This document shows positions 1 through 15,024 of a stretch of DNA of 15,024 nucleotides, in pieces (position 1 is the first letter of the stretch; each line of letters opens with the position of its first letter). The notes below the pieces were generated by a model, which saw only the letters and a list, made by a program, of their open reading frames with translations, was not told the DNA's origin and searched no databases. This stretch comes from Anaerolineales bacterium. Its GTDB lineage: Bacteria > Chloroflexota > Anaerolineae > Anaerolineales > Villigracilaceae. The stretch covers positions 1-15,024 of the forward strand of contig WGAD01000316.1 in the NCBI GenBank assembly GCA_015489255.1, in the 5' to 3' direction. The translations under genes were made by a program, and so were the position numbers.

Positions 1-557
1 GTATATAAGGTGACGGTGGGCGCTGGAACTTCGTAGAGCACGCGCTGGTTGATAGGGATATGCAGCGCATACAAGGCGGCGCCGACGAGCATCAGGCCGA
101 TGCCGATCCAGTCCACTTCGCCCTGGATGCCGGCGGTCATCAGCCCGGTGGCGAGGATTGCCAGCAAGACGCGCAGCAGCGTCAGGCGGGTGGGGGGCTG
201 GGCGTCGAGCGCCAGCCAGAGGGCCACGAAGAGGGGATAGGTGGCATACAGCAACTGCCCCAGGCCCGCGTCCAACCGGCCCAGCGCCAGGTAATAGGCA
301 ATAGAACCCAGCCCATTGATGCTGCCAGCGAGCAGGCAGCCCATCAGCCCGACCGGGTAGATGTACAGAAATTGACGTTGGGTGAACAGCATGATGATGA
401 ACAGCAGCAAGACGGCCATCAAGGTGCGCAGTGCAACCACAGCCATCGGCGAAAAACCGAACAAAATGGCCTGCTTGCCGAAGACTGGCGCAAACCCCAG
501 GAAAAGGGCGGAAAGCAGCGCTGCCGAAATGCCGCTGCGTTGACCTTTTTTGCCCAT
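1..557 (-). CDS. EamA/DMT-family membrane transporter (partial, C-terminus beyond left edge)
   Basis: Probable integral inner-membrane metabolite exporter of the drug/metabolite transporter superfamily (EamA fold). The ATG at 557-555 opens a frame that runs without a stop to the window edge, giving the first 185 residues. It is very hydrophobic, with about six predicted membrane helices (roughly residues 10-28, 36-57, 66-88, 96-115, 125-143, 150-168). Typical EamA features are the GFAPVFGKQA segment in helix 1, ALRTLMAVLLL in helix 2 and QLLYATYPLFVALW in helix 4. The first EamA repeat is complete and the second is just beginning; full-length members have about ten helices. It starts 6 bp after the stop of the threonine-synthase/receiver fusion, with only a weak AGGG ribosome site, so it is probably translationally coupled. 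The family includes the threonine/homoserine exporter RhtA, which would fit the neighbour, but substrate cannot be read from the sequence. The family call is firm; the substrate is unknown. Confidence 0.85.
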   Translation of the reverse strand, partial: MGKKGQRSGISAALLSALFLGFAPVFGKQAILFGFSPMAVVALRTLMAVLLLFIIMLFTQRQFLYIYPVGLMGCLLAGSINGLGSIAYYLALGRLDAGLGQLLYATYPLFVALWLALDAQPPTRLTLLRVLLAILATGLMTAGIQGEVDWIGIGLMLVGAALYALHIPINQRVLYEVPAPTVTLY

Positions 558-563
558 CGTGCC

Positions 564-2291
564 CTAATCCAGGATCGAACGCACTTCGTTCAAAAAGTCA
601 TCGCTCATGAAATTACCCTTTTGCATCAAGGCCTGGATGCGGCCTTGCAGGCGCGCTTTTTCTCTGGGGGTGAGGATTTTAGCCGTGGAGACGATGACGG
701 GGATTTGCGCTGTTTGTGGGTCTTCTTTCAGTTTTTCCAGTACGGTGAAGCCGTCCATTTCCGGCATCATCAGGTCGAGCACAACGAGGTCGGGCTTGCT
801 GGTGCGGATGAGTTCCAGAGCGTCGCGGCCATTGTCCGCTTCCAGGATTTCGAAGTCGCCCTGGGATTGCAAGATGCGGCGGACCAGGCGGCGGGCCTCG
901 GCGGTATCATCGACGATGGCGATGCGCGGGAAGCGCTCCGGCGCCACCTGATCGAGGGCGGCCAGCAGGCCGTCCTCGGTGGCCCCTTTGTCCTTGTCGC
1001 TTTGTGGTTGCGTTTCGGGTTGTTTGAGCAGCCCTGTCTTGGATGGGATGATGACGTTGCGGGCCCAGCCTTCGCCGAGGACGATCGGTTCGGTGGGCAT
1101 GGTGTGCCCGGTGCAATTGACGACAACCACGTCGCCGGGCTTGATGATGCCAGCGCGGATCAATTTGAACAAACCAGCGAAAGCAACCCCGGCGGCCGGT
1201 TCCATGGAGATGCCTTCCATTTTTGCCAGGACGTGCATGGCACGAAAGGCCTCGTCGTCGCTGACGGCTTCGAACGTGCCGCCGACGCGCTTGGCCCAGT
1301 GGTAAAGCATGGTGTACGTCCGCCCTGGGGAGCCGGTTGCCAGGGTTTCGATGTAGGTATTGGGCGATTCAACCGGCGTGGCCTCGGGCTGATCGGCCTT
1401 CCAGGCCGTGACCATCGGCTGGCAGCCGGCGGCCTGGATGGCCGCAAAAGCCGGGATGTGGTCAATCAGGCCCATGCGTTGCAGTTCGGCAAAGCCCTTC
1501 ATAACGCCAAGCGGCCCCATGCCGCCGCTGACGGCCTGGATGTACCAGTCGGGCGTGCGCCATAGAGGTTTGCCCGTTTCGGGGTGTGTTTTGGGGCCGA
1601 GCTGGCGGGTCAATTGTTCTGCGATTTCGAAGGCAATGGTTTTCATGGCCTCGATGGCTGTGATGGTGCGCGATCCCATGTCCTGGTATAACCCGCGTTG
1701 GGCGGCAAATTCAGCGGCGATCTTCTTGGTTTGGTCGTAGGAGCCAGTGACTTTGATGACCTGGCTGCCGTAGAGGGCGATCTCGCGCATTTTGACGGCT
1801 GGCACCAGGCTGGTGACAAAGCCCCAAAGTTTGATGCCGGCGCGGGCAGCGTAAGCCGAGTAGGCGATGGCGACGTTGCCGGTGGAGGCAGCCACGATTT
1901 CGGTGATGCCGGCGTCTTTGATGGCGGCGATGGTGACGGAAGCTTGCCGATCTTTGAAGGAGCGGGTTGGCCCCTGGCGTTCGTCTTTGATGTAAATCCC
2001 CTGCACGCCGAGCATCATGCCCAGGTTTACGGCGTGGATCAGCGGCGTGCCTCCCTCGCCCAGGGTGATGTAAGGGGAAGGCGTTTGCGAGGGCAGGAGT
2101 TCTTTGTACCGCCACAGGTTGAAGGGGCGGTTGGGCAGATCCAGCCGCCATTTTTCGGCTACATGGGGGTAGTTATACACGGCTTCACGCCACATGCTGC
2201 CGCAGGCGGGGCATTGAATCTCAATAGGGCGGTAATCGGTCAGGTGCCCGCAATCCAGGCAGCGGATTTGCAGGTGTTGAAAATTATCCAT
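564..2291 (-). CDS. Threonine synthase-like PLP enzyme fused to a C-terminal response-regulator receiver domain
   Basis: A 575-residue two-part protein. Residues 1-35 form a zinc-ribbon-like start with C11-x2-C14 and C27-x2-C30. Residues about 70-415 are a fold-type II PLP enzyme closest to threonine synthase (O-phosphohomoserine to threonine): SFKDRQ with the putative Schiff-base Lys113, the cofactor-contacting ASTGN at 135-139, SGGMGP at 255-260 as the likely phosphate loop, and the NCTGH motif at 392-396. A polar linker (about 424-453) leads to a complete receiver domain (455-575): acidic pair D461/D462, phospho-acceptor D506 in VLDLMMPEMDG, T536 and K558. There is no effector after it. 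The start overlaps the hybrid-kinase stop by 8 nt (ATGGATAA) and has only a weak ribosome site, implying coupling. A receiver on a biosynthetic enzyme is unusual and suggests phosphorylation control or recruitment to the kinase. Cysteate synthase or a related PLP lyase cannot be excluded as the exact activity. All key residues of both halves are present. Confidence 0.9.
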   Translation of the reverse strand: MDNFQHLQIRCLDCGHLTDYRPIEIQCPACGSMWREAVYNYPHVAEKWRLDLPNRPFNLWRYKELLPSQTPSPYITLGEGGTPLIHAVNLGMMLGVQGIYIKDERQGPTRSFKDRQASVTIAAIKDAGITEIVAASTGNVAIAYSAYAARAGIKLWGFVTSLVPAVKMREIALYGSQVIKVTGSYDQTKKIAAEFAAQRGLYQDMGSRTITAIEAMKTIAFEIAEQLTRQLGPKTHPETGKPLWRTPDWYIQAVSGGMGPLGVMKGFAELQRMGLIDHIPAFAAIQAAGCQPMVTAWKADQPEATPVESPNTYIETLATGSPGRTYTMLYHWAKRVGGTFEAVSDDEAFRAMHVLAKMEGISMEPAAGVAFAGLFKLIRAGIIKPGDVVVVNCTGHTMPTEPIVLGEGWARNVIIPSKTGLLKQPETQPQSDKDKGATEDGLLAALDQVAPERFPRIAIVDDTAEARRLVRRILQSQGDFEILEADNGRDALELIRTSKPDLVVLDLMMPEMDGFTVLEKLKEDPQTAQIPVIVSTAKILTPREKARLQGRIQALMQKGNFMSDDFLNEVRSILD

Positions 2292-5200
2292 TCGCTACTC
2301 GTTTCAGTTCCTTTTGCAGGTGTTGCAGGATGTCTTCGCGGGTCAGGTTGGTTTTGCGCAGGAGTTGCAAGCCAAATTCTTCCAGTTTTTGTTGTTGTGT
2401 GGGGGTCAGGTCGCCGCCGGTGAGGATGAGCACCGGAATTTGCTGCCAGGCAGGCTGTTCTTGCAGGGCCTCGAGCACGGCAAAGCCGTCCATCTCTGGC
2501 ATGAAGAGGTCGAGGATGATGGCGTCCGGCGGGGCAGCTTCTATGGATTTCAAACCGACGCGTCCGTTTTCGGCCAGGGTGGTTTTAAAACGTCCGTTTT
2601 CGGTGAGCAATTTGTCTACCAGGCGCAAATCGTCCGGGTTGTCGTCGATGACCAGGATGTGCCGGATTTCGCGCTCTTGCTGGTGGATCAGGCGTTCCAG
2701 CGCCTGCAACAAATCATCGGGCAAAATAGGCTTCACCAGGTAATCGGCTGCGCCCAGCTTGAAGCCGCGTTCACTATCTTCGACGATGCTGCACACCAGG
2801 ATGGGGATCTCCTGGGTGGCGGGGTCTGACTTGAGGGCCTGGAGAACGTCCCACCCGCTGCGTCCGGGCATCATGATATCGAGGGTGATGGCCTGGGGTT
2901 GGAGTTCGCGCGCTTTTTCCACGGCTTGTGTGGGGTCCGTCAGCGGGACGATGCGCCAGCCTTCGCCGCGGAGATAGCGTTGGTAGAGGCTGATCACGTT
3001 CGGATCGTCGTCGATGGCGAGCAGCAGACGTCCCGTGCCCTCCGCGGGATCGGCGCCGCCAGCGGGCGGCTGCGGCTGTTCCCAGGTCGGCAGGCTGAAG
3101 AAGAAAGTGCTGCCGTGCCCCACTTTGCTGTGCAGGCCGATTTCTCCTTCGTGCATGTGCACCAACGCCTGCGAAATGGAGAGACCCAAGCCCGAGCCGC
3201 CGACTTTGCGCGTCAGGGAAGCATCTACCTGGGAGAAGGGCTGGAAGAGCTTCTTTTGATCCTCTTCCGAGATGCCCGGCCCGGTATCGGTTACGGTGAC
3301 GCGCACCATGCGGCGCCCGTTTTCATCGAAGACGGTTTCTGCCGCTACGGTGATGCTGCCTTCGTCGGTGAATTTGGCGGCGTTGGAAACCAGGTTGAGC
3401 AAAACCTGGCGAATGCGCATCTGATCGGCGCGGACGGTGGGAAGGTCTTCCGGGATGCGCTGCACCAGCTGGACGGGTTTGTCTTTGACCAGGCCGCGGG
3501 CGGTGGACATGACGCTTTCGACGAGCGCTTTGATGTCCACTTCCTCGAAGTTGAGTTCCATCTTGCCGGCTTCGATGCGCGAGAGGTCCAGGATGTCGTT
3601 GATCAGGCCCAGGAGGTGTTGCCCGGAGTTGTAGATGGAGGTCAGGTCTTGTGTTTGCAGATCGGTGAGCGGGCCGTCGATGCCCTTGAGGATGACCCGC
3701 GAAAAGCCGATGATGGAGTTGAGCGGCGTGCGCAGTTCGTGGCTCATGTTGGCCAGGAACTGGCTCTTGAGGCGATCGACCTCGCGCATTTCACGAACGG
3801 CTTGCTGTGCCAGTTCGTAAGAGCGGGCGTTGTCGATGGCGATGGCGATCTGGTCGGCAAGAATTTGCAGCACGGCGATATCGTCTTCGTGGAAGGCGTT
3901 GGCTTGCTCCGCTTGCAAAACCAGCGCACCGATGATGCGCTCACCGATTTTGAGGGGCAACCCGGCGGCGGATTTGGGTTCTCCCTGGCTTTTCTGGCGC
4001 TTGAAGCGGGCCAGTTCGTCTGCGGTGTTGGCAATGATGGTTTGCCCTTTGCTGGTGACCTGGCCGACCAGGGTCTGGCTGCCGACGGGCAGGCTGAAGC
4101 CCTCGGCCTTCAGTTTTTGTCCTTTGCCATCGGTGGCTTCGCGTAAGATGGCGTCCAGGCCGCTTTCGTTCAGGGTGAAGATCATGGCATGGTCGTAATT
4201 GAACCGTTCTCGCAGCAGGTTGACGGTGCGGCGGAAGAGGGTGTTGAGGTCCAGGGTGGATGTGATCAAGCGGCCAACTTCGGCGGCGGTGGCCAGGTAT
4301 TCGTTGCGGCGGCGCAGGTTTTCTTCGGCGCGTTTGCGGTCGGTGATGTCGCGGGCGATCCAGAAGAGTTCTTCTTCGTTCAGTTTGCTGATGGAGGCGT
4401 CGAACCAGACGATGCGATCGCCGATGGGTAGGGGGTATTCAATGCGTTGGTTTTCGCCGGTTGCGAAGGCGGCTTCTACCGTGCTTTGGAAGAGCGAGCG
4501 CAACGGCTCATCGAAGATATCGACCATGCGCTGCCCGATCAGCTCCTCCGGAGGGCGATACAGGCCGCCCGGGTTGGTGGGGGCGATGCGTAAATAGGTG
4601 GTATCCCGTCCGACCACCAGGATGACGTCATCCATGGAGGCAAAGAGGGTGCGCAATTCGGCTTCGGAACGGGCCAGGGCTTCGGCGGCTTGAAAACGTT
4701 CCAGCGCGGAGGCCGCCTGAGTGGCCAGCAGGCGGAAGATGTCTTCGTGGCGCGGGGTGATGCGGATTTCCGGATCGTAACTTTGGATGGCCATGGCGCC
4801 AATGACGGCGTCTTTGGTTCTCAGCGGGACGCCGAGCCAGTCCACAGCCTGTACGCCGCGGATATCAACCCCTTGCTCGCGGAGCCGGTCGAACTCCGCT
4901 TCGCGCACCAGCAATGAACGGCCCTCACGGATGATGAGGCTGGTCAGCCCGTTGCCGAGCGGTAGTTCTTGCGGCTTTTCGGGTTCTTTTTCGTCCACGA
5001 AGTAGGGGAAGCGCAGGATATCGTTTTCCCGGTCGTAGAGGGCGACGTAGAAGTTCTTGGCAGGCAGCACTTCCTGGACGCTATAGTGGATCTTTTGCAG
5101 TAGATCGTCCAGGGAGTCGGTCGTTAGGGCGGCATCGGTGATCTGGTAAATGGCGTTTTGCAGGCGTTCGGCGGTTTTGCGTTCTGTGATGTCGGTATAT

Positions 5201-6405
5201 ACGCCGCGGTAACCGAGCAAGTGATTGTGTTCGTCCAGGATGGGCACGGCGTCCGCTTCGAGGACGACGATTTCGCCGTCTTTCCGCAGGTGGCGCATTT
5301 CCATTTGAACGATGCGCGCGCGGCTGCGGATGAACTGCCCCATGGTTTCCTGGATTTGGTTTTTGTCTTCCTCGGGCATGAAGTCGCCGGGCCGTTTGCC
5401 AATGATTTCTTCCGGGGTGTACCCGAGCACGTCGCGCACACGGTCGGAGCAGTAGGTGTAATTGCCCTGGGCGTCCATTTCCCACACCCAGTCGGCAGAA
5501 GCCAGGGCCACGTCGCGGAAGCGGGCTTCCGATTCGCGGATGTTGCGCAACAGGCGGGCGTTTTCAATGGCGCCGGCGATCTGGATGAAGATCGTCTCCA
5601 GGAGTTTGACTTCATAGGCATCCAGCACCCGCTGCGGATCGATCAGGTGCAGGCTGGTGAGGGCGATGACTTCATCGCGGCTGACGATAGGCATCAAAAC
5701 CAGGGTGTGTGTGCCGACAGCAGTAGCGATTTCCTGGATCAATGACGGCAGATCCCGCTCGGGGACGTTGGGCAGCACGGTGGTCTTGCGCGTGCGCCGA
5801 ATTTGCTGAATGAGCGGCAGGTGAACGTCCAGGTGGCGCCCGTAGGCGGCAAGCCCTTCGATCTCCGGGTATAGGCTGATGACGACGTAAGAGCGCTGGT
5901 TGGAATCGAGCAGGGCGAACCCGACCTGGGCGAAGTTGAATGCTTCGCTGATTTCGCGGCCAATGCGGGAAAGGGTGGCTTGGATGTCGCTGTAATCGCT
6001 GGCGATGCGGCTGATGCGGTTGATTAACTCCAGCTCTTCTGCACGGCGACGAGTTTCTTGCAGCAGGCGGGCGTTTTGCAAGGCCAGGGAGAGTTGGTCC
6101 GCCACTTGTTCGATCAGCAGGCGCTCGTCTTCGTCCCAGGAAGCGTGGTCTTCAATGACTTGCAGCTCGCCCCATTCATCTTGCCCCAGGCGAATGGGGG
6201 CGGCGATGATGGCTTGATTCCCTTGCTGGCGGACAGCCGCCTGACGAAGGGGAATGGTATCTGGCGAGATAGCGGCCCGGGTTGCCGCCGGCGACGAGGC
6301 CGCGGCGGTTTGTTCGCCATCTCCCCGGACCGGTTGCCGCTGGTTTTCTATCTCGCGGAAGAGGTCTTCAATGTTTTTATTAATGTCTTTCTTTTTCCTG
6401 GGCAT
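2284..6405 (-). CDS. Soluble multi-GAF/PAS hybrid sensor histidine kinase with two C-terminal receiver domains
   Basis: A 1373-residue cytoplasmic hybrid kinase with no signal peptide or membrane helix. Domains in order: basic and low-complexity head (1-62); the second half of a GAF domain (65-118); GAF (about 125-288); PAS/PAC (290-410); GAF (412-572); PAS/PAC (575-695); GAF (700-865); HisKA (878-945) with the phospho-acceptor H889 in SHELRTPLNSIIGF; HATPase (about 990-1105) with N-box N1004/N1008, DTGPGI at 1040-1045 and GGSGLGL at 1069-1075; REC1 (1127-1240; D1132-D1134, D1176, S1206, K1225); REC2 (1249-1367; D1254/D1255, D1299, T1329, K1351). All catalytic motifs look intact. No output domain follows, so phosphotransfer to another protein is expected; the nearest candidate is the receiver fused to the next gene. 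The start is supported by GAGGAG at 6421-6416, inside the end of parA (26-nt overlap). Ligands of the GAF and PAS domains are unknown. Confidence 0.96.
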   Translation of the reverse strand: MPRKKKDINKNIEDLFREIENQRQPVRGDGEQTAAASSPAATRAAISPDTIPLRQAAVRQQGNQAIIAAPIRLGQDEWGELQVIEDHASWDEDERLLIEQVADQLSLALQNARLLQETRRRAEELELINRISRIASDYSDIQATLSRIGREISEAFNFAQVGFALLDSNQRSYVVISLYPEIEGLAAYGRHLDVHLPLIQQIRRTRKTTVLPNVPERDLPSLIQEIATAVGTHTLVLMPIVSRDEVIALTSLHLIDPQRVLDAYEVKLLETIFIQIAGAIENARLLRNIRESEARFRDVALASADWVWEMDAQGNYTYCSDRVRDVLGYTPEEIIGKRPGDFMPEEDKNQIQETMGQFIRSRARIVQMEMRHLRKDGEIVVLEADAVPILDEHNHLLGYRGVYTDITERKTAERLQNAIYQITDAALTTDSLDDLLQKIHYSVQEVLPAKNFYVALYDRENDILRFPYFVDEKEPEKPQELPLGNGLTSLIIREGRSLLVREAEFDRLREQGVDIRGVQAVDWLGVPLRTKDAVIGAMAIQSYDPEIRITPRHEDIFRLLATQAASALERFQAAEALARSEAELRTLFASMDDVILVVGRDTTYLRIAPTNPGGLYRPPEELIGQRMVDIFDEPLRSLFQSTVEAAFATGENQRIEYPLPIGDRIVWFDASISKLNEEELFWIARDITDRKRAEENLRRRNEYLATAAEVGRLITSTLDLNTLFRRTVNLLRERFNYDHAMIFTLNESGLDAILREATDGKGQKLKAEGFSLPVGSQTLVGQVTSKGQTIIANTADELARFKRQKSQGEPKSAAGLPLKIGERIIGALVLQAEQANAFHEDDIAVLQILADQIAIAIDNARSYELAQQAVREMREVDRLKSQFLANMSHELRTPLNSIIGFSRVILKGIDGPLTDLQTQDLTSIYNSGQHLLGLINDILDLSRIEAGKMELNFEEVDIKALVESVMSTARGLVKDKPVQLVQRIPEDLPTVRADQMRIRQVLLNLVSNAAKFTDEGSITVAAETVFDENGRRMVRVTVTDTGPGISEEDQKKLFQPFSQVDASLTRKVGGSGLGLSISQALVHMHEGEIGLHSKVGHGSTFFFSLPTWEQPQPPAGGADPAEGTGRLLLAIDDDPNVISLYQRYLRGEGWRIVPLTDPTQAVEKARELQPQAITLDIMMPGRSGWDVLQALKSDPATQEIPILVCSIVEDSERGFKLGAADYLVKPILPDDLLQALERLIHQQEREIRHILVIDDNPDDLRLVDKLLTENGRFKTTLAENGRVGLKSIEAAPPDAIILDLFMPEMDGFAVLEALQEQPAWQQIPVLILTGGDLTPTQQQKLEEFGLQLLRKTNLTREDILQHLQKELKRVANG

Positions 6406-7159
6406 AACGGATCAACTCCTCGGCTAGGGCGCGGTATTGCTGCGCGCCGCGGCTTTTGGGGGTGTAATGCGTGATGGGAACGCCACTGATGGGGCTTTCG
6501 CGCAGTTTGGTATCGACCTCGATGACCGTTGAAAACAGGCCGTCTTTGAACGTGTTTTTCAGCTGTTTGTAAATGTCTCGGTGTGCGCGGTTGCGCCGGT
6601 CGAACATGGTGACCAGGATGCGGTAAGACAGGTAAGGGTTGCCTTCCCGACGCACGGTTTGGATCATTTGCATCATGTTGCGCAGAGCATAGGCGGAGAA
6701 AAATTCTGCCTGGGTTGGGATGAGCAGGAGATGGGCGGCGGTGAGGGCGTTGCGCGTGACCGCGCCCAGGGCTGGCGGGCAATCCAGGATGATGAATTCA
6801 TAAGGCAAGGGCAAGGCCTCGGCGATGGCGTTTTTCAACCGATCGGCGTAGTTGATGTAAACGGGCAGCAGTTGTTCGACCAGTTCGATCTTCGTGTTGG
6901 AGGGGACGATGTCCAAGCCGGAGATCGGCGAAGACTGGATACAATCTTGCAGGGCAACTGAGGCCAGCAAAACATCATTGGAACCCAGGCTGACGCGGGC
7001 CGGCGGAATGCCCAGCGCTAGGGTGAGGTTGGCCTGGGCGTCGAGGTCGATCATCAGCACCTTTTTCCCCAAACGGGCCAGAGCGCCTCCCAGGGAAAGC
7101 GCTGTGGTCGTCTTGGCGACGCCGCCTTTTTCGTTGGAGATGGCAACTACATACGTCAT
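6380..7159 (-). CDS. ParA/Soj-family deviant Walker ATPase
   Basis: A 259-residue cytoplasmic ATPase of the ParA/MinD superfamily. It starts with MTYVVAISNEKGGVAKTT, giving the deviant Walker A loop with signature Lys11 and Lys16. The A-prime strand VLMIDLDAQ holds D38 and D40, and Walker B is FIILDCPP with D126. A Soj-like IPTQAEFFSAYAL segment (147-159) and TKLRESP (217-223) follow. Length is typical of chromosomal Soj/ParA proteins without an N-terminal DNA-binding extension. Such ATPases form ATP dimers that bind nucleoid DNA and position cargo such as partition complexes, chemoreceptor arrays and carboxysomes. No ParB-like gene or parS-like array is visible here. The gene lies 6 bp after the last membrane sensor and overlaps the hybrid kinase by 26 nt, so its cargo is more likely the signalling assembly than a chromosome or plasmid; that is inference. 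The C-terminal MinD amphipathic membrane helix is not obvious. Confidence 0.94.
   Translation of the reverse strand: MTYVVAISNEKGGVAKTTTALSLGGALARLGKKVLMIDLDAQANLTLALGIPPARVSLGSNDVLLASVALQDCIQSSPISGLDIVPSNTKIELVEQLLPVYINYADRLKNAIAEALPLPYEFIILDCPPALGAVTRNALTAAHLLLIPTQAEFFSAYALRNMMQMIQTVRREGNPYLSYRILVTMFDRRNRAHRDIYKQLKNTFKDGLFSTVIEVDTKLRESPISGVPITHYTPKSRGAQQYRALAEELIRYAQEKERH
6416..6421 (-). promoter_or_regulatory. Ribosome binding site for the hybrid kinase, inside parA
   Basis: On the minus strand GAGGAG lies 10 nt before the kinase ATG (6405-6403). It sits within the last codons of the ParA-like gene. It fixes the kinase start and shows that the 26-nt overlap between the two genes is real and carries its own initiation signal. 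Confidence 0.7.
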
Positions 7160-7165
7160 GGCTGC

Positions 7166-8902
7166 TCAATCACGTGAAATAATCCGCACTTCTCGGGCGC
7201 CAAGCGCTTGTTTGAGCTCGCGGATGGCGGTTTGCAACATCTCATCGGGGTCGTCGGTGCTGCGCAGAGCATTGGCAATTTGGGCGACCATGTGTTCGCG
7301 TTGTGCGCGGCGGGTGGTTTCTTCGTACAGGCGGGCGTTTTCGAGCGCCAGTGCGATGCGATCGGTCAGCGCCTGGATGACCTCCTCCGAGGCATCTTGC
7401 TCGGCGATCTCTGCCGGGGCGCGGATTTCCAGCACGGCCAGGGTCTCTCCGCGCAATTGGATGGGCGCCAAAATGCGGCTTTCGGCGCGGTCGCGCATAC
7501 GGGTCATTTGGATCCGGTCGGGCGGCGTTTCCAGTCCGCGCAAGGGGTTTTCCAGGGGCTGCAAAAGGCCCGGGCGGTAACGATACCCCACCACGCGCAG
7601 GCGGCGGGCCATGTTTTTCCATGAAGTTTGCGCCTGCTCCCGGTAAATGGTTTCCAGTTCCGCCAGCTGGCGTTGGGTGCTTTCCAGCAGCTGAACGTTG
7701 TAGATGGCGACGGCGATTTCATCGGCCAGGATTTCCAGCACCTCAATGGAAGCTTCATTGAAGGCGTCCTGGCGGTCACTTTGTACATCCAGTACGCCGA
7801 TGATTTCATTGCCCGCAAACAGTGGAAAGGCGGCTTCCGCCTGGGTATCTGGCAGGCGCGGGTTCTTGAAGTGTGAAGCCTCTTCTGCTGTGTTGGCGAC
7901 CACATAAGGCTCGCCGCGCACGATGGCCATGCCGACGACGCTGTCTTGTCCGACGGGCAGCATGTGGTGGTCTTCCAGCATGTCGCGCCCACCGGCGCTG
8001 TTGGCAGCGCTGAGCACGGCGTAACGCTTGCTGCGATCGAGAAGAAAAATGCCGACATGGTAATAGCCGAAGGTTTCGCTGACGAGGATGGTGATTTCTT
8101 TGAGCAGGGAGGCGCCAGCCTCGGCCTGGGCGGAGCTTTGTGCAATGCGGCGCGCCAACACAGCAACGCTTTGGTAGATTTTCGAGAGGCGTTGCTCTTC
8201 GGCGCGCAGGGTTTCCATCGCTGCCAGGCTTTCCTGCAGGGCGGCGGTGCGTTCCTGCACCAGGTCTTCGAGCGAGTTTCTGATGGATTCCAGGTCCTGG
8301 GTGGCTTTTTGTTGTTCGCTCAGGGCCTGGTTGAGATCGTCTAGCAGGCGGTATAAGCGGTTTTGCACCTGGCTGAGCACCAGGATCGTTAATCCGACCA
8401 GGGCGCTGCTGATGAGCAGATCATCGATTCCGGTGTGGCGGGCAAATTCGGGTGGCCCGGCCAGGCCCTTCATATCCATGATGACGACCAGCCCCAGGCT
8501 GACAATGGACAAAAAACTGACGTAAATGGTGCTCTTGGGGCCGAGCAGTAAGGTGCTTAATGTGATAACAACAGCATAACCGATCAGCGCGGAATCGTGC
8601 ATGCCATTGCCGAGGATGAGAACATACGTCAGGATGGCGTAGGAAGCCAGCGGCAGCACCAGTTTGGTGGGCAAGAGATAGTTACGGCGGAACATCCAGT
8701 ACGCGTATTGGGTGATCAGCAGCACGATGCTCAGCCCGGTGACCGTGTACAAGGCGCCGCGGCGCTGGATGAAGAAAGCCTCGGCCAGGATGAGGAAGAG
8801 GACGCCGGCGTTCAAGATGATGAGCACTCGCCCGACAAAGGTGCGAAACTCCGGGTGAGCATCGAAGGGGCTGGCAAACATTTGCCTCAGGTATTTACGC
8901 AT
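7166..8902 (-). CDS. Six-helix membrane GAF sensor protein without output domain (array member 5)
   Basis: A 578-residue membrane protein from the chosen ATG at 8902. About six helices lie at residues 24-46, 52-71, 81-98, 104-120, 124-143 and 163-178, followed by a coiled coil (about 182-241) and a GAF domain (about 251-405) with FGYYHVGIFLLD, SAANSAGG and GVLDVQSD. A linker with an invariant Trp (TSWKNMARRL) leads to a short second GAF-like module (APIQLRGETLAVLEI to ALALENARLY). The C-terminal tail is shared by all array members. No kinase, phosphatase, cyclase, MCP or DNA-binding domain is present, and no cysteine. The next upstream ATG (8914) lacks a ribosome site, whereas GGAG sits 6 nt before 8902, giving an 8-nt overlap (ATGCGTAA) with the preceding gene. 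It ends 6 bp before parA. It probably senses a small ligand or membrane state and signals by contact with a partner; the ligand is unknown. Confidence 0.87.
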   Translation of the reverse strand: MRKYLRQMFASPFDAHPEFRTFVGRVLIILNAGVLFLILAEAFFIQRRGALYTVTGLSIVLLITQYAYWMFRRNYLLPTKLVLPLASYAILTYVLILGNGMHDSALIGYAVVITLSTLLLGPKSTIYVSFLSIVSLGLVVIMDMKGLAGPPEFARHTGIDDLLISSALVGLTILVLSQVQNRLYRLLDDLNQALSEQQKATQDLESIRNSLEDLVQERTAALQESLAAMETLRAEEQRLSKIYQSVAVLARRIAQSSAQAEAGASLLKEITILVSETFGYYHVGIFLLDRSKRYAVLSAANSAGGRDMLEDHHMLPVGQDSVVGMAIVRGEPYVVANTAEEASHFKNPRLPDTQAEAAFPLFAGNEIIGVLDVQSDRQDAFNEASIEVLEILADEIAVAIYNVQLLESTQRQLAELETIYREQAQTSWKNMARRLRVVGYRYRPGLLQPLENPLRGLETPPDRIQMTRMRDRAESRILAPIQLRGETLAVLEIRAPAEIAEQDASEEVIQALTDRIALALENARLYEETTRRAQREHMVAQIANALRSTDDPDEMLQTAIRELKQALGAREVRIISRD

Positions 8903-10649
8903 CTTCCGCTCCATTTTTTACGGTGGCAAATTGAACGGTGACCTCGGAGCCGGGTAAAATCTGGCCGATTTCCTCGGCGGCAATGCGCAGGATGTTTTGC
9001 ACGTTGACTGATGAGGCCAGCTGCGCGCTGAAGGCGCTGATGCGGCGCTCGCGGTCCGCGCGTTCGCGGGCGTCTTCCAGCAGACGGATGTTTTCCGTTG
9101 CCAGGGCAACGCGCTCGGCGATATCCTGGGCGACGGCCAGCAAGTCGTCGTTGATGATGGGGCTTTCGATTTCTATCACGCCTACAACCTGGCCGCGCAA
9201 GCGAATGGGCACCAGCATTTGCTCACCGTGGCGGTAGTAGGGTTGTTTTTGCAGGGCTTGCTGCACCTCGGGAGGGTATTCCCGCGCCTTGCCGATGTAC
9301 GACTTATACCCTGCGCGGCGTTGCACGCCGGCGATCTGGTGGCGCCGGGCCAGCGCGCGCCAGCCTTGCTGGAGGGTTTCGCCGTAAATCAGGCTGGCTT
9401 CCCGCGCGAGGCGCTCGGCTTCTTGCAGGCGGCGGCTGTTTGCTAACATGTAGGCGATTTGATCGGCCAGGATGGCGAAGATGTGCACATCGTCTTCGGT
9501 GAATGCGTTGGGTTCGGTGCTTTGAATGTCTAGCACGCCGATAACGCGGCGGCGGACGATCAGAGGGAGGGCGATTTCTGCGCGCGTGTTGGGTAGGTCG
9601 GGGTTATCGAAGTACACGGCATCGCTGGACGTATCGAGCACTACGCGCGGCAGCCCGCTGGCGGCGACAGCGCCTACGATGCCCGTTTGTCCAATAAATA
9701 GTTTGTGCTGGCGGGTGAGCATGGCCTGGCCGCCAGCGCTTTGGCTGTTGACCGCTTGCAAAACCGCGTAGCGGTTGTCGTCATCTAACAAGAAGATGCC
9801 CACATGATAAAAACCAAAATGCTGGTGAATCAGGTTGGCGATGCGGGTGAGCAGCGTGTGGGTATCGTTGCTTTCTTGCAGCGTGGCGCGGGCGATCTGG
9901 GCGATGGCTTCTAACTGGCGGGCGCGTTTCTCTTCCTGGGCGGAAAGTTGTCGCAAGGAAAGGGTTTGTTCTTCCAGCTCTTGTGTGCGTTCTGCGACGA
10001 TCGTTTCCAGATCGGTGTTGATTTGCTGCAATTTCTCGTTGGCAAGACGGGCCGCCGCCAGGCTTTCGCGTTCATGCTCCAGGCTGGAGGTCAGGTTATA
10101 GGCCGCCAGCGTGAGCGCGGTGCCGCCGATGCCGAGGATGGTGATGTAGGAAAAAATCATCGAACGCGGATCGGGTCGCGCCAGGCTGGGGACCAAGGTT
10201 CCGCTGTCGATGCCCATTTGGATGAGCGGGAATGTGACAGCGATGATGGCGAACACCCCGGCCGTCTCCCAGGGGGAGAGCAGCAGCACAGACAACCCAA
10301 TGACGACCACATAAGCGAAGACGGCCGGCCCGACGCCGATGTCGGCGTAAGCGGCCAGGGGGTAGGTCGAGGCCAGGTAAGCGGCCAGCACCAGGAGGTG
10401 GCTTACGGGGCGCAGCCCGCCTTTGCGCAGCCAGAACAAAAGGCCCACCGCAATGGCGGCTTCCAGCGCATTGGAGATGACGTTGAACAAACGGTTGGCT
10501 TTGGGCGCGTAAAGCCCTTGGAGGATGGCGGAAGCGATGGTCAGCGCAACGGTCAAGATGAGCAGCACGTTCAGAATGCGCGCTGTGCGGTGTTGAACCT
10601 CGTCTTCTGTATAAGGGGGAATCTGTGGCCAGAACAGGTTTTTGATCAT
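8895..10649 (-). CDS. Six-helix membrane GAF sensor protein without output domain (array member 4)
   Basis: 584 residues. Six predicted helices lie at about 24-46, 55-74, 82-102, 106-124, 128-146 and 164-184, then a coiled coil (about 187-250). The GAF domain (about 255-410) has FGFYHVGIFLLD at 278-289, a QAVNSQSAGGQAML segment, AVYFDNPDLPNTRAEIALPL and GVLDIQST. The Trp-containing linker is QQGWRALARRHQIAG (427-441). The second, short GAF-like module spans about 475-525 (LVPIRLRGQVVGVIEIE to VALATENIRLL), followed by the shared C-terminal tail (RISAFSAQLASSVNVQNIL). There is no cysteine and no catalytic or DNA-binding output domain. The start is well supported: GGGGAGG lies 7 nt upstream, and the ATG overlaps the previous stop as ATGA (4 nt). 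Paralogous to both flanking genes over its whole length, including the membrane part, where a DxALxxY-like helix is shared only weakly. It likely acts by protein-protein contact; the ligand is unknown. Confidence 0.88.
   Translation of the reverse strand: MIKNLFWPQIPPYTEDEVQHRTARILNVLLILTVALTIASAILQGLYAPKANRLFNVISNALEAAIAVGLLFWLRKGGLRPVSHLLVLAAYLASTYPLAAYADIGVGPAVFAYVVVIGLSVLLLSPWETAGVFAIIAVTFPLIQMGIDSGTLVPSLARPDPRSMIFSYITILGIGGTALTLAAYNLTSSLEHERESLAAARLANEKLQQINTDLETIVAERTQELEEQTLSLRQLSAQEEKRARQLEAIAQIARATLQESNDTHTLLTRIANLIHQHFGFYHVGIFLLDDDNRYAVLQAVNSQSAGGQAMLTRQHKLFIGQTGIVGAVAASGLPRVVLDTSSDAVYFDNPDLPNTRAEIALPLIVRRRVIGVLDIQSTEPNAFTEDDVHIFAILADQIAYMLANSRRLQEAERLAREASLIYGETLQQGWRALARRHQIAGVQRRAGYKSYIGKAREYPPEVQQALQKQPYYRHGEQMLVPIRLRGQVVGVIEIESPIINDDLLAVAQDIAERVALATENIRLLEDARERADRERRISAFSAQLASSVNVQNILRIAAEEIGQILPGSEVTVQFATVKNGAEDA
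8909..8912 (-). promoter_or_regulatory. Ribosome binding site deciding the start at 8902
   Basis: Minus-strand GGAG ends 6 nt before the ATG at 8902-8900. The alternative ATG four codons upstream (8914) is preceded only by an A-rich and pyrimidine-rich stretch with no purine-rich site. The downstream start also gives the same 8-nt ATGNNTAA overlap seen at two other junctions of the operon. Confidence 0.6.
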
Positions 10650-12346
10650 GCGTCGGCCTCCCCGTCTTTGGATTCTGCGGGCGAGATGGGACTGATTTGG
10701 ATGCTAATGGACGAATCGGGCAGCAGCGCGCCCAATTCTTCGGCGGTGATATCCAGGACGTTTTCCAGGCTGGTGGTGCGGAAGATTTTATCGCTGATTT
10801 GCCCAACCAATTGTTCGCGGGCGGCGCGTCGTTGCAGTTCGTCGAGGAGGCGGGCATTGTCCAGCGCGGCGGCAATGCGTTCAGCCGCCTCGGCTACCAG
10901 GGTCTGCTCGGCGGGTAAGATCTCTTTGCGCCGTCCCTTGCGGCGTACTTCAATGATGCCGATGGTCTGTCCGTGGAGGACGATGGGGCGACGGTAAGCG
11001 TCGGCCAGGGATGCGCCGTCATCGCGCAAGGGGCGCAACTCTGCGCCGTCGTAGCGGTAGCCCTTGGCTTGCAAGGTGTCGCGCAGGGCGCGCCAGTCTT
11101 GGCGGATGAATTCCTGGTAAATTTTCTGCGCCTGCACCAGCGCCTGGCGTGTTTGCTCGAACAGGCGGGCGTTTTCGATGGCAACGGCAACCTGGTTGGC
11201 GAGGATGTTTAGGGTGGCAATGTCTTCTTGCGAGAAGGCGTTGGCTTCGGTAGATTGGATGTCCAGCACGCCGATGGTCTTTTCGCCAGCGACGAGCGGC
11301 AGGGTCATTTCGGCGCGCGTATCTGGCAGGTCGGGGTTTTCAAAGTGGACGGCGTCAACGCCCACGTCCAGGGCGATGCGCGCTTTTTGCGTTTGGGCGG
11401 TGTAGCCAACCAGGCTGGTGCTTTCTACCGGCAGGCGGTGTCGGCGTTGCAGCATTCGCTGCCCGCCTTCACTGTTGGCCGCTTGCAGGATGGCAAATTC
11501 GTTGCGCTCGTCGAGCAGGAAGATGCCGACGTGGTAGAACCCCAGTTTTTCGCTGATTTGCTGGACGATGCTGGCGAGCAGCTGTTCCGGGTTCTGCACC
11601 CGCACGATGGTTTGGGCAATTTCGGAGATGGCTTCCATCTGGCGCGCGCGGCGGCGCGCCCGGTCGCTTTCCTGTTGCAAGGCTGCGGTGCGCTCTGTCA
11701 CGCGTTTTTCCAGGTTGGCGTTCAGCGCTTCCAGCTCGCTGCGGGCGGTTTCTGCTGCTTCGTGTTCCCGGTTGACTTGCTCGATGATGGCGTTGAAGTC
11801 CGAAAAAATGTGCCAGATGAGCAAAGCGCCCAGCAGAAGGATGATGCTCAGATAAGAGGCGGCGATAAAGGGAGGGTGGTATTGGGGGATGATGAACCGC
11901 CCGTTTTGGAAGAGCGCCAGCAGGTAGGCGGTGAGGATGCTGATCAAAACCAGGTAGGCCAGCCAGTGCCGTTCCAGCAGCACGGCTGCCAGCATAAAGA
12001 TGATCAGATAGGCCGCCAGGGCCGTATCTTGAACATTGCCGGCGTTGTAAGCCTGGATAGTCATGGCCAGCCACCCGCCAAAGATGAGTGTCAGGGAAGC
12101 CGCTGTAACTGCGCCCTTGCGCACCAGAAGGTGTACGAACAAGGCGGCGATAAACATCCCCAAGAAGCGCGGAACGTCATGGTATTGCATGGCGGCAGAC
12201 AGGCTGCCCGCCGTAGCCAGCCGGGATAAAAGCACGGCGCCAAGAAGCACGCTTGTTGCCAGGCTGAGATTGAAGACGTACCGCGCCTGGCGGGTTTTGA
12301 CCTCATCGTTTGCGAACACCGGGGAGGAGAAGAAACGGTTAGGCAT
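10646..12346 (-). CDS. Six-helix membrane GAF sensor protein without output domain (array member 3)
   Basis: 566 residues from the ATG at 12346. Six predicted helices lie at about 25-46, 60-76, 80-100, 107-124, 128-146 and 162-181, then a coiled coil (about 185-240). The GAF domain (about 245-400) has LGFYHVGIFLLDE, QAANSEGGQRML, AVHFENPDLPDTRAEMTLPL and GVLDIQSTEANAF. The linker RQDWRALRDTLQAKGYRYDG is followed by a short GAF-like module (PIVLHGQTIGIIEV to AAALDNARLL) and the shared tail (QISDKIFRTTSLENVL). There is no cysteine and no enzymatic or DNA-binding output. The longer frame from 12364 is disfavoured: it has no ribosome site, while GGAGG lies 8 nt before 12346 and produces an 8-nt ATGCCTAA overlap with the gene upstream. 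The stop overlaps the next start as ATGA. Role inferred as an input-only receptor for the operon's kinase or ParA; the ligand is unknown. Confidence 0.87.
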   Translation of the reverse strand: MPNRFFSSPVFANDEVKTRQARYVFNLSLATSVLLGAVLLSRLATAGSLSAAMQYHDVPRFLGMFIAALFVHLLVRKGAVTAASLTLIFGGWLAMTIQAYNAGNVQDTALAAYLIIFMLAAVLLERHWLAYLVLISILTAYLLALFQNGRFIIPQYHPPFIAASYLSIILLLGALLIWHIFSDFNAIIEQVNREHEAAETARSELEALNANLEKRVTERTAALQQESDRARRRARQMEAISEIAQTIVRVQNPEQLLASIVQQISEKLGFYHVGIFLLDERNEFAILQAANSEGGQRMLQRRHRLPVESTSLVGYTAQTQKARIALDVGVDAVHFENPDLPDTRAEMTLPLVAGEKTIGVLDIQSTEANAFSQEDIATLNILANQVAVAIENARLFEQTRQALVQAQKIYQEFIRQDWRALRDTLQAKGYRYDGAELRPLRDDGASLADAYRRPIVLHGQTIGIIEVRRKGRRKEILPAEQTLVAEAAERIAAALDNARLLDELQRRAAREQLVGQISDKIFRTTSLENVLDITAEELGALLPDSSISIQISPISPAESKDGEADA

Positions 12347-14549
12347 CGGCAGGACCTCCCTCATGGGGTTCTATGGTTTTGATGATAATTTCCGAGTTGC
12401 TCAGGTAGCGTCCCAGGCCGACGGCAGCCTCGCGCAGGATGCTTTCCACGTCCACTGCCATGGACAGGCGGCTGGAAATTTCGCCGATGGCATGATCGAT
12501 CAGGGCTTGTTGTTGCGTTTCCGTATACAGGCGGGCGTTTTCAATGGCGGCGGCCAGCTGGTTGAGGAGGAGGGCGACCATGTTTTTCTCTTCGTCCGAC
12601 CAGGGCGGCAGGCCGGAGCGTTTCGTCAAGCGCAAGAGGCCGATGGTGGTCTTGCGCAGTGCAATGGGGGCAATGAGGGTCAGCCCGTCGTCGCTGGTTT
12701 GGGGTTGTCTTTCTTGCAGGGCGCGTTTGTGCGCCGGGCCGATCTGCGGTTCGGCGAGTTCCAGCAGGCCGCCCTGGGCCACGCTGATGAAACCGGTGAC
12801 AGCGCGCCGTTGGGCAAATTCGCGCCAGGAGCTGAGCGTTTGTTCTTCTAGCAGGCGGTTCAGGGTTTGGCTGACCTGTTGCGCTTCCTGGTAGAGGCGG
12901 GCGTTTTCCAGGGCGATGGCGATCTGGTTCGCCAGGGTTTGCAGCACGCTGACGTCCTCGTCGGTGAAGGCGTTGGCTTCGCGGCTTTGGATGTCTAGCA
13001 CGCCGATAACCTGCTGGTGGAGGACGATCGGCAGGGCCATTTCGGAGCGGGTTTCTGGCAGGTCGGGGTTGTCGAAATAGACGGCGTCCTGGCCGACGTC
13101 CAGCGCGATGCGCGGGCGGCCAGTAGCCGCGACGTAACCGACGATGCCCACTTGCCCGACGCGCAATTTGTGCTGGCGCGCCAACATGCGTTGTCCGCCG
13201 GCGCTGTTGGCCGCCCGCAGAACGGCGTATTCGTGGCGTTCATCGAGCAGGAAGATGCCGACGTGGTAGAAACCAAATCGCTCGCTGATGCGGAAGGCAA
13301 TTTGGCGCAGGGCCTGGTCGATCTCTTGGCCGGTGATCACGATGTTGCCCACGTCGGAGGTGGCTTGCAGGAGGGAGGCGCGCCGCTCGAGGGCGGCGGT
13401 GCGTTCACGCACGCGGGCGTCCAGGTTGGCGATCAGATCGCGCACCTGGGTGATCATGGTGTTGAGCGCACGCCCTAATTGTCCGATCTCGTCTGTGCGC
13501 CTGGTTTCCTGGAAGAAGACGTTGTATTCTCCTTCGGCGACGCGCTCTGCCACTCGCCTCATTTCGCTGAGCGGTGCGATGGCGCGGTTGATGCTGATGC
13601 CCAGCCCCAGGCTGCCGACGGCCAGCACGCTGGCGATGATCAGCAGGTTGGAGACCAGCGTGTTGAACTGGTTGGCAAGCTGGGCAGTCTGGTTTTGGAT
13701 GATGTCCAGCACGCCGATGATTTCCCCATTGGCGTCGGTGATGGGGGAGCTCAATACACTGTAGACCTGGCCGCCTTGACGGCGCAGGGAGGTGGTGACA
13801 ATGCCATCTTCCAGGGTGGCGAGGTAATTTTCGCGGGTGTTGAAGACTGGAACCGCTCCGGAGAGCGACTGCAATAACAGGATGTCTTCGGGGGCGTCTT
13901 GCGTCTGGATGCGGCTGCTGAAGCCAACTCTGGAGGCGGCGTCGGCGCGTATGGAAACCTGCCATTGGGCCTCCACGTATTGGGTCAGGTCGCGCAAGGT
14001 TTGGTCGTTAACATCGGTGACAATTTCCAACACGGCGATCAGCCGCCCCTGGTAGTAAATGGGAGAGATATCTAGCAGGCTGATGCCGTGGTTATCGACC
14101 GCCCAGGTTTGAACGGATTGTCCCGTCTGAAAGACGGTTTCGATGGCATCGGCTTTCAGCATCTGGATGACATCGTCCTGGGCCATGGGGGCTGTGTCCA
14201 GGAATTTTAACCCCGGTGGCAGGTAAAAACGGATGGCGGCGATGTGGGTGTCGGTGTGTTCGTTGAGGCCGCGGATGATTTCTTCTGTCTGGGCTTGCAA
14301 AGCCTCCCGATCGCCGCGCGCCAGCGCCTCGCTCAGACCATCGGCTTCGCTGATGTAGTGCCCGGCCAGGTTCATCGCTTGCTGGTGGGCGGCAATGCGG
14401 TTGCGGAAGTAAGAAAGCGTCTGCACCTGGGCGGCGCGGTTTTCTTCTTCCAGGAAGGATTGCATACGGAAGAAGTTGATGCTGGTGACGAGCAAGAGGA
14501 TCGTTAGCATCCAGAAGACGGTGAAAATGGTCAGGCGGCGAGACAGCAT
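12339..14549 (-). CDS. Double-Cache/HAMP/GAF membrane sensor without output domain (array member 2)
   Basis: 736 residues with a different input end from its neighbours. A short N-terminus and helix (about 7-28) is followed by a large extracytoplasmic region (29-297) that resembles a double Cache domain: a helical stalk, then GISLLDISPIYYQGRLIAVLEI (near 155-176) and a second lobe ending VLSSPITDANGEIIGVLDI (265-283). Helix 2 is at about 298-318. A HAMP domain (320-372) carries P326 and DEIGQLGRALNTM. A coiled coil then leads to a GAF domain (about 395-550) with FGFYHVGIFLLDE, RAANSAGGQRML and GVLDIQSREANAF. The Trp linker (SSWREFAQRRAVTG), a short GAF-like module (625-672) and the shared tail match the other array members. 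There is no kinase, MCP or cyclase domain and no cysteine. The start is supported by AGGAG at 14560-14556, 6 nt upstream; it begins 3 bp after the previous stop. It probably binds a small extracellular ligand. Confidence 0.9.
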   Translation of the reverse strand: MLSRRLTIFTVFWMLTILLLVTSINFFRMQSFLEEENRAAQVQTLSYFRNRIAAHQQAMNLAGHYISEADGLSEALARGDREALQAQTEEIIRGLNEHTDTHIAAIRFYLPPGLKFLDTAPMAQDDVIQMLKADAIETVFQTGQSVQTWAVDNHGISLLDISPIYYQGRLIAVLEIVTDVNDQTLRDLTQYVEAQWQVSIRADAASRVGFSSRIQTQDAPEDILLLQSLSGAVPVFNTRENYLATLEDGIVTTSLRRQGGQVYSVLSSPITDANGEIIGVLDIIQNQTAQLANQFNTLVSNLLIIASVLAVGSLGLGISINRAIAPLSEMRRVAERVAEGEYNVFFQETRRTDEIGQLGRALNTMITQVRDLIANLDARVRERTAALERRASLLQATSDVGNIVITGQEIDQALRQIAFRISERFGFYHVGIFLLDERHEYAVLRAANSAGGQRMLARQHKLRVGQVGIVGYVAATGRPRIALDVGQDAVYFDNPDLPETRSEMALPIVLHQQVIGVLDIQSREANAFTDEDVSVLQTLANQIAIALENARLYQEAQQVSQTLNRLLEEQTLSSWREFAQRRAVTGFISVAQGGLLELAEPQIGPAHKRALQERQPQTSDDGLTLIAPIALRKTTIGLLRLTKRSGLPPWSDEEKNMVALLLNQLAAAIENARLYTETQQQALIDHAIGEISSRLSMAVDVESILREAAVGLGRYLSNSEIIIKTIEPHEGGPADA
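12355..12359 (-). promoter_or_regulatory. Ribosome binding site deciding the start at 12346
   Basis: Minus-strand GGAGG stands 8 nt before the ATG at 12346-12344. The ATG at 12364, six codons upstream, is preceded by CCATAGAACCCC, which contains no ribosome site. The sequence therefore favours the shorter protein and a coupled 8-nt overlap with the preceding sensor gene. Confidence 0.65.
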
Positions 14550-14552
14550 ACC

Positions 14553-15024
14553 TTACTCCTGTCCTTCCTCCCCGCCTGCCAGGTCCGGCGGGAGAATTTG
14601 CACTTCGGCTTCGGCCAGGTCTAACCGCCATTGTAGTTCGTGGACGGCGGTACGCAGCACGGCATCGAGATCGAGGCTCTGGCGCATACGGTTGGAGATG
14701 TTGCTGATGGTTTGCTCGCGGGCGACGAACTGGCGGGTTTGCTCCAACAGGCGGGCGCTTTCTAGCGCCAGGGCGATTTGCTGGGCGATGACATCGGCCA
14801 TTTCGCGCTCCGAGCGCGTCCAGGGACGGTCGGAACGTTTGACTTGCAAGGCGCCCAGCCGGATGCCCTGCAATTCAATGGGAATGCGCATGACGTGGGC
14901 AGCCGCCAATTGGCTGCTTTCTTTGCCTTTGGCGAAGACGCCCAGGCCGGTGTAGGTGTAGGCGAGTTTCTTTTCTTGCAGGCGGGCAGCCCAGTGAGAA
15001 CGCAGGTCTTCCTGGATGAAAACT
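14553..15024 (-). CDS. C-terminal part of a further GAF sensor protein (array member 1, partial)
   Basis: The frame is open from the right edge to a TAA at 14555-14553, giving the last 156 residues of a longer protein. They match the C-termini of the next four genes: a Trp-containing linker (QEDLRSHWAARLQEKKLAYTYTG), a short GAF-like module (MRIPIELQGIRLGALQVKR to IALALESARLL) and the tail (ISNRMRQSLDLDAVLRTAVHELQ), then an acidic end GGEEGQE. This also closely resembles residues 65-118 of the hybrid kinase in the same operon. No cysteine is present and no output domain follows. A TTG at 14909 could start a 118-residue protein, but homology continues upstream of it, so the true start lies beyond the window. 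The input part cannot be seen. Confidence 0.85.
   Translation of the reverse strand, partial: VFIQEDLRSHWAARLQEKKLAYTYTGLGVFAKGKESSQLAAAHVMRIPIELQGIRLGALQVKRSDRPWTRSEREMADVIAQQIALALESARLLEQTRQFVAREQTISNISNRMRQSLDLDAVLRTAVHELQWRLDLAEAEVQILPPDLAGGEEGQE

Follow-up and report, generated by a model that had tools for sequence, protein, structure and literature searches.

A pyridoxal-phosphate enzyme with its own receiver domain, encoded next to a hybrid histidine kinase in Anaerolineae

The stretch of DNA analysed here (the window) comprises positions 1 to 15,024 of contig WGAD01000316.1 (assembly GCA_015489255.1), from an Anaerolineales bacterium of the family Villigracilaceae. On its minus strand, a frame of 575 codons with zero internal stops runs from 2291 down to 564, and the plus-strand translation of the same interval contains stops. 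The encoded protein, hereafter PLP-REC, consists, in this order, of a zinc ribbon, a pyridoxal 5'-phosphate (PLP) fold-type-II domain, a linker of approx. 50 residues and a complete receiver (REC) domain. Pfam assigns PALP to residues 75-394 (E 2.6e-64) and Response_reg to residues 457-549, and detects neither a DNA-binding nor any further domain in the protein. The gene and its parts are the following:

564..2291, minus strand: PLP-REC fusion protein, 575 amino acids (open frame, Pfam PALP and Response_reg, conserved family; stop codon at 564-566)
2202..2261, minus strand: zinc-ribbon-like CxxC...CxxC, residues 11-30 (four cysteines kept in 79/79 distinct relatives)
1110..2069, minus strand: PLP fold-type-II domain, residues 75-394 (PLP lysine K113 at 1953-1955)
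930..1076, minus strand: linker, residues 406-454, with a conserved short helix at about 441-449 (from predicted local distance difference test, pLDDT, values and conservation)
564..929, minus strand: receiver domain, residues 455-575 (PF00072, E 5.9e-21; phospho-acceptor D506 at 774-776)

An initial annotation of this DNA had described the frame as an uninterrupted fusion of a PLP enzyme to a complete receiver, lacking a DNA-binding or other effector domain, and both the frame and the Pfam assignments confirm that description. The residues that it had singled out, i.e., K113, the ribbon cysteines 11, 14, 27 and 30, and D461/D462, D506, T536 and K558 of the receiver, are all correct.

The fusion is found well beyond this contig. 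Matches to PLP-REC at E<=1e-80 were obtained in 100 of 298 genomes of the class, counting that of the window, and in 70 of the 189 that are near-complete; some of these matches are fragments, and the one in genome G259 has two internal stops. The PLP part alone matches 44 of 301 genomes of the phylum at E<=1e-60; 43 of the 54 matches listed, the window included, score at least 396 bits and all lie in open frames of at least 551 residues, whereas the remaining 11, in frames of 385-502 residues, have 35-39% identity and score 206-217 bits. This jump in both score and frame length marks a gap between the fused family and its unfused relatives. In the loci fetched, every frame with a PLP match above 250 bits also carries a REC (104/104, duplicates and window included), and both domains are present in all 120 matches listed from a protein search with the window copy, as well as in all 120 listed from a search with the copy of Herpetosiphon, one of them from H. 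giganteus. Among the best 80 of 592 places in a genome scan, relatives of the PLP part (L038-L057) are titled as Anaerolineae groups, Ardenticatenales, Thermoflexales or Chloroflexi; outside the class, two further families of the phylum sampled (f69, f80) carry the fused family, and Herpetosiphon is also a bearer. With a limit of E<=1e-60, none of 72,556 plasmid records gave a match. An assembly artefact or a one-off fusion, which the initial annotation had named as one way in which its reading could fail, is ruled out by the widespread matches, the 79 relatives described below and the 104 frames that are all fused; the fusion is the standing state of this family.

For the alignment of loci, 91 frames were chosen for having both domains, a choice that hid no unfused strong match given the 104/104 count; 81 were left after dropping identical ones, two of which (L001, L004) are the window itself, leaving 79 relatives with 47-72% identity. 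In these, C11, C14, C27, C30, K113, D462, D506 and K558 are invariant, position 461 is D or E, and position 536 is T in 57 and S in 22, so that the acidic pair, the phospho-acceptor aspartate, the Thr/Ser and the lysine expected of a response regulator are present in 79/79. The AlphaFold2 (AF2) model (predicted template modelling score 0.73) gives the linker a pLDDT below 50 at residues 416-440 and 448-453. The short helix of residues 441-449 that precedes the REC, with G441 in 75/81 and L442 in 77/81 locus rows (window copy counted twice), is a candidate signal transmitter.

Immediately upstream of PLP-REC lies a gene that the initial annotation had recognised as a hybrid kinase, in agreement with the GAF/PAS, HisKA, HATPase and two REC domains found by Pfam:

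2284..6405, minus strand: hybrid histidine kinase, 1373 amino acids, with GAF/PAS, HisKA, HATPase, REC1 and REC2 (open reading frame, Pfam)
2284..2664, minus strand: second REC of the kinase, which falls in one group with the REC of the enzyme

The two genes share 8 bases, and the ATG of PLP-REC spans the stop codon of the kinase. Adjacent kinase and regulator genes, often translationally coupled, are commonly partners, according to PMC3018481. Among the loci with at least 2.5 kb of upstream flank, 56/64 have a histidine kinase on the same strand within 2.5 kb upstream of PLP-REC, 53 of them identified by profile and three (L041, L050, L056) by phmmer; hence both the fusion and its kinase neighbour, whose conservation the initial annotation had proposed to check, are conserved in related genomes. 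A direct fusion of kinase and enzyme was considered for L118 and L119, where the frames have 1784 and 1157 residues, and was discarded, given that their long N-terminal parts overlap the kinase frame on the same strand.

The relationships of these proteins were studied with quick trees supported by the Shimodaira-Hasegawa-like approximate likelihood ratio test (SH-aLRT) only, the inner order of which was not used; the kinase and REC trees were built from chosen loci. In the kinase tree (85 rows), 32/32 sampled upstream kinases fall in one group of 40 rows (SH-aLRT 97), while 26 of the 30 rows of genome G027 (two of them identical) stand outside it, and one of the four inside is the upstream kinase of G027 itself. 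Four rows labelled as other kinases are also placed in the group; those of L118 and one of L119 are upstream kinases that were mislabelled through the overlapping frame, and L119 and L053 each hold one extra kinase inside it. In the REC tree (123 rows), a group of 56 rows (SH-aLRT 99) brings together 34 first and 7 second RECs of the enzymes with 15 second RECs of the kinases, and the first or only RECs of the kinases, the single RECs and the REC-kinases stand apart from it. This shared grouping fits a common origin, inside this system, of the enzyme REC and the second REC of the kinase. In the same set, D462, D506 and K558 are kept in 34/34 first enzyme RECs, whereas the kinases' own RECs are more variable (D462 in 16/19 of the HK_r1 rows).

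The nature of the PLP domain is a separate matter. It resembles threonine synthase (EC 4.2.3.1; TIGR00260 / NF006050) in its fold and its PLP lysine; its N-terminal ribbon cysteines are as in unfused paralogues of the NF006050 type, and its STGN loop as in those of the TIGR00260 type. K113, S136, G138 and N139, within SFKD and the STGN loop, are present in 79/79 relatives, and S111-R115 and T137 in 81/81 locus rows. On the other hand, PLP-REC belongs to a separate clade, has different substrate-side motifs and an extra REC, and is not the sole thrC-like gene of its genome. The window copy falls below both curated cut-offs (TIGR00260, 154.5 versus 167.1; NF006050, 243.7 versus 303), while two unfused genes of the same genome exceed them (304 versus 167.1 and 577.7 versus 303, respectively), which answers the suggestion of the initial annotation that a second, stand-alone thrC be sought. 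A better-scoring unfused thrC is present in 11/11 genomes tested, which rules out the fusion as the only thrC of its genome, and thrB lies beside the unfused gene in two (G027, G213) of the six genomes searched for it. In the PLP tree, for which 23 of the 44 fused rows were used, the fused enzymes make up a clade of their own (SH-aLRT 100). The segment before K217 reads D-x-G-x-(R/K)...E-(A/S)-M-K-T in the fused rows, with few exceptions, and the terminal motif is (T/S)GHT in these versus TG-x-GLK in nearly all unfused rows shown. The segment N-S-x-N-P-x-R (or E-P-Y-R), which we take from the Thermus enzyme to bind the substrate phosphate, is absent from the fused family, where aligned position 212 is A/S/G/T/C/V in 80/81 locus rows and S/A/T in 120/120 listed proteins. 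That the loss of this arginine would by itself prove that the enzyme is not a threonine synthase was considered and weakened by two observations: the arginine is also missing from L166, an unfused lineage above the TIGR00260 cut-off, and R/K, which might substitute for it, occupies position 208 in most fused members. As judged from sequence, the threonine synthase label appears doubtful for the fused family because of the better unfused thrC in 11/11 genomes, the separate clade, the changed motifs and a cut-off that the family straddles. Of the reading in the initial annotation, what is retained is thus a PLP enzyme that has the build of a response regulator and a kinase for a neighbour; its identification as threonine synthase is not supported as stated. 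Cysteate synthase (TIGR03844; CapA2, 9k3c) is a poor match, as PLP-REC is far below the cut-off (101.6 versus 324.9 bits; 133.2 for the Herpetosiphon copy), and the 9k3c match shows no REC, unlike PLP-REC.

Response regulators with an enzymatic output are well known, such as the methylesterase CheB and the GGDEF/EAL proteins. PLP-REC is like these in joining a REC to an enzyme, and differs in that its output is a PLP fold-type-II enzyme of amino-acid type placed N-terminal to the REC. Neither "pyridoxal" nor "threonine" is used in the main text of a publication that covers such fusions. A cyanobacterial ThrC with threonine deaminase activity is described in PMC12172450, where its lineage was seen only in cyanobacterial genera; it parallels PLP-REC as a relative of threonine synthase that has, or in PLP-REC probably has, a different activity, and the term "response regulator" does not occur in the text of that paper. 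Likewise, the accessible portion of a review of PLP-enzyme allostery (PMC9081730) contains none of the terms "receiver", "two-component" or "response regulator", and in that of PMC7090099 thrC appears as the target of a transcript measurement, with no fusion described. No published description of a PLP enzyme fused to a REC was found in searches of Creative Commons-licensed PubMed Central papers. PLP-REC adds a further form to the enzymatic response regulators, a kind already known.

The kinase and PLP-REC genes of the window are part of a tight run on one strand that also includes five GAF-type proteins, a ParA-like ATPase and an EamA transporter:

3..557, minus strand: EamA (drug/metabolite transporter, DMT) transporter, cut by the contig start (PF00892, E 5.5e-14)
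6380..7159, minus strand: ParA/MinD-like ATPase (PF13614), overlapping the kinase start by 26 bases
7166-8914, 8895-10649, 10646-12364, 12339-14549 and 14553-15023 (the last cut by the window end), minus strand: five GAF-type proteins (open reading frames, Pfam GAF in all)

The protein at 12339-14549 additionally has dCache_3 and HAMP domains, and Pfam detects no kinase domain in any of the five, which possibly form a sensory array feeding the kinase; the ParA/MinD-like ATPase could position a sensory cluster. EamA follows downstream on the same strand in 26/59 loci with enough flank and in 10/10 of the close set (at least 62% identity), and ParA is found within 8 kb upstream in 17/57 loci and in 9/10 of the close set; these close-set counts omit 18/88 loci that could not be given an identity class. 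Other layouts are kinase, PLP-REC, REC-kinase and EamA in L148, L152 (REC-kinase assigned by Pfam), L156 and L157; kinase, PLP-REC-REC and then one or two single RECs in L122, L124, L125 and L137; and kinase, PLP-REC, REC and unfused threonine synthase in L126-L128 and L130. A single REC sits between PLP-REC and the unfused threonine synthase in L119, L126, L127, L128 and L130; the unfused gene was scanned in L126 and L127 and exceeds the NF006050 cut-off in both. In two genomes of family f13 (L123:10035-11108, L167:9621-10694), PLP-REC has no kinase neighbour and comes directly after mtnA (methionine salvage), which it may overlap; in L167 a PNPase gene is located further upstream on the same strand. 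The adjacency to mtnA yielded no function for PLP-REC. In L138-L143 and L165, the cluster is repeatedly flanked, near EamA, by oppositely oriented kinase and REC genes, which in L165 encode a REC with an OmpR-type DNA-binding domain and two kinases, one of GAF and one of REC-GAF type.

The reading that we favour, with about an even chance in our judgement, is that PLP-REC works as a response regulator, that a PLP fold-type-II domain with predicted catalytic activity serves as its output, and that the upstream kinase controls it. The GAF/PAS modules of the kinase, perhaps aided in this lineage by the GAF-type proteins, would detect a signal, and the kinase would pass the phosphate to D506; the complete REC in every relative, the linked kinase and the overlapping genes point to such a direct phosphotransfer from kinase to enzyme. 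Once phosphorylated, the REC may act through the flexible linker on the PLP domain and alter its activity, its oligomeric state or the partners that it binds. This PLP domain would be a specialised paralogue of threonine synthase with a role outside housekeeping. A related amino-acid substrate is probable, and the product may exit by the EamA transporter in the lineages that have one. Several observations weigh against this proposal. Eight of the 64 loci lack a kinase core within 2.5 kb upstream, and the kinase of L041 is split over two frames. Kinases with one REC (L145, L148, L154, L157) have no enzyme-like REC, and those with two could first phosphorylate their own. No match at E<=1e-80 was found in 198/298 genomes of the class, including G243, G253 and G263 of the same order, and therefore the system is dispensable; from the counts given above, neither EamA nor ParA is essential. 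Of the fused copies listed, 5/13 pass TIGR00260, so the family straddles that cut-off. Finally, in the AF2 model the REC does not pack confidently on the PLP enzyme; with this and the low pLDDT of the linker, an allosteric route is not visible.

The low-confidence linker also suits an alternative in which the REC, phosphorylated or not, is a docking module that recruits the enzyme to an assembly of kinase, GAF and ParA proteins, so that control would be exerted by location and not by catalysis. The grouping of the enzyme REC with the second REC of the two-REC kinases is what a homotypic docking domain might show, and the run of GAF-type proteins and the ParA-like ATPase in close relatives would provide the assembly; nevertheless, a complete phospho-site in 79/79 relatives exceeds what docking needs, and given the low frequency of ParA among the loci we regard this alternative as unlikely. 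A genuine threonine synthase isozyme under two-component control, in which phosphorylation tunes the threonine supply, is what the initial annotation proposed and would account for the conserved lysine and loop; it is quite unlikely in view of the better-scoring unfused thrC of every genome tested, accompanied by thrB in two of them, the scores of the window copy under both cut-offs, and the changes before K217 and in the terminal motif. In the MocR/GabR regulators an aminotransferase fold serves as a ligand sensor, and by analogy the PLP domain could be a sensor and not a catalyst: an amino acid would bind to it as an aldimine with PLP, and the level of this amino acid would be reported into the phosphorelay. 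The strong conservation of the PLP site while the segment before K217 drifts, and the unfused thrC elsewhere in the genome, would agree with this, but response regulators normally carry outputs and not inputs, and the kinase already has several GAF/PAS sensors, which leaves a sensor role very unlikely.

Returning to PLP-REC as a catalytic response regulator, a broader and distinctly more tentative proposal is that it represents a class of response regulators across Anaerolineae and Herpetosiphon, in which a kinase directly switches a dedicated, non-housekeeping PLP enzyme that makes or destroys an amino-acid-like metabolite, exported in many lineages via the adjacent EamA transporter. Many sequences of the family carry the automatic name "threonine synthase", and therefore the whole family may be misnamed. 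The presence of PLP-REC in Herpetosiphon, which is cultured, makes the question testable now. The outputs for which two-component systems are well known are DNA binding and the handling of second messengers; if the proposal is true, a sensor kinase would have direct control of small-molecule metabolism in a third of the sampled genomes of the class as well as in Herpetosiphon, and an amino-acid signal or effector would be governed directly by phosphate and not by transcription.
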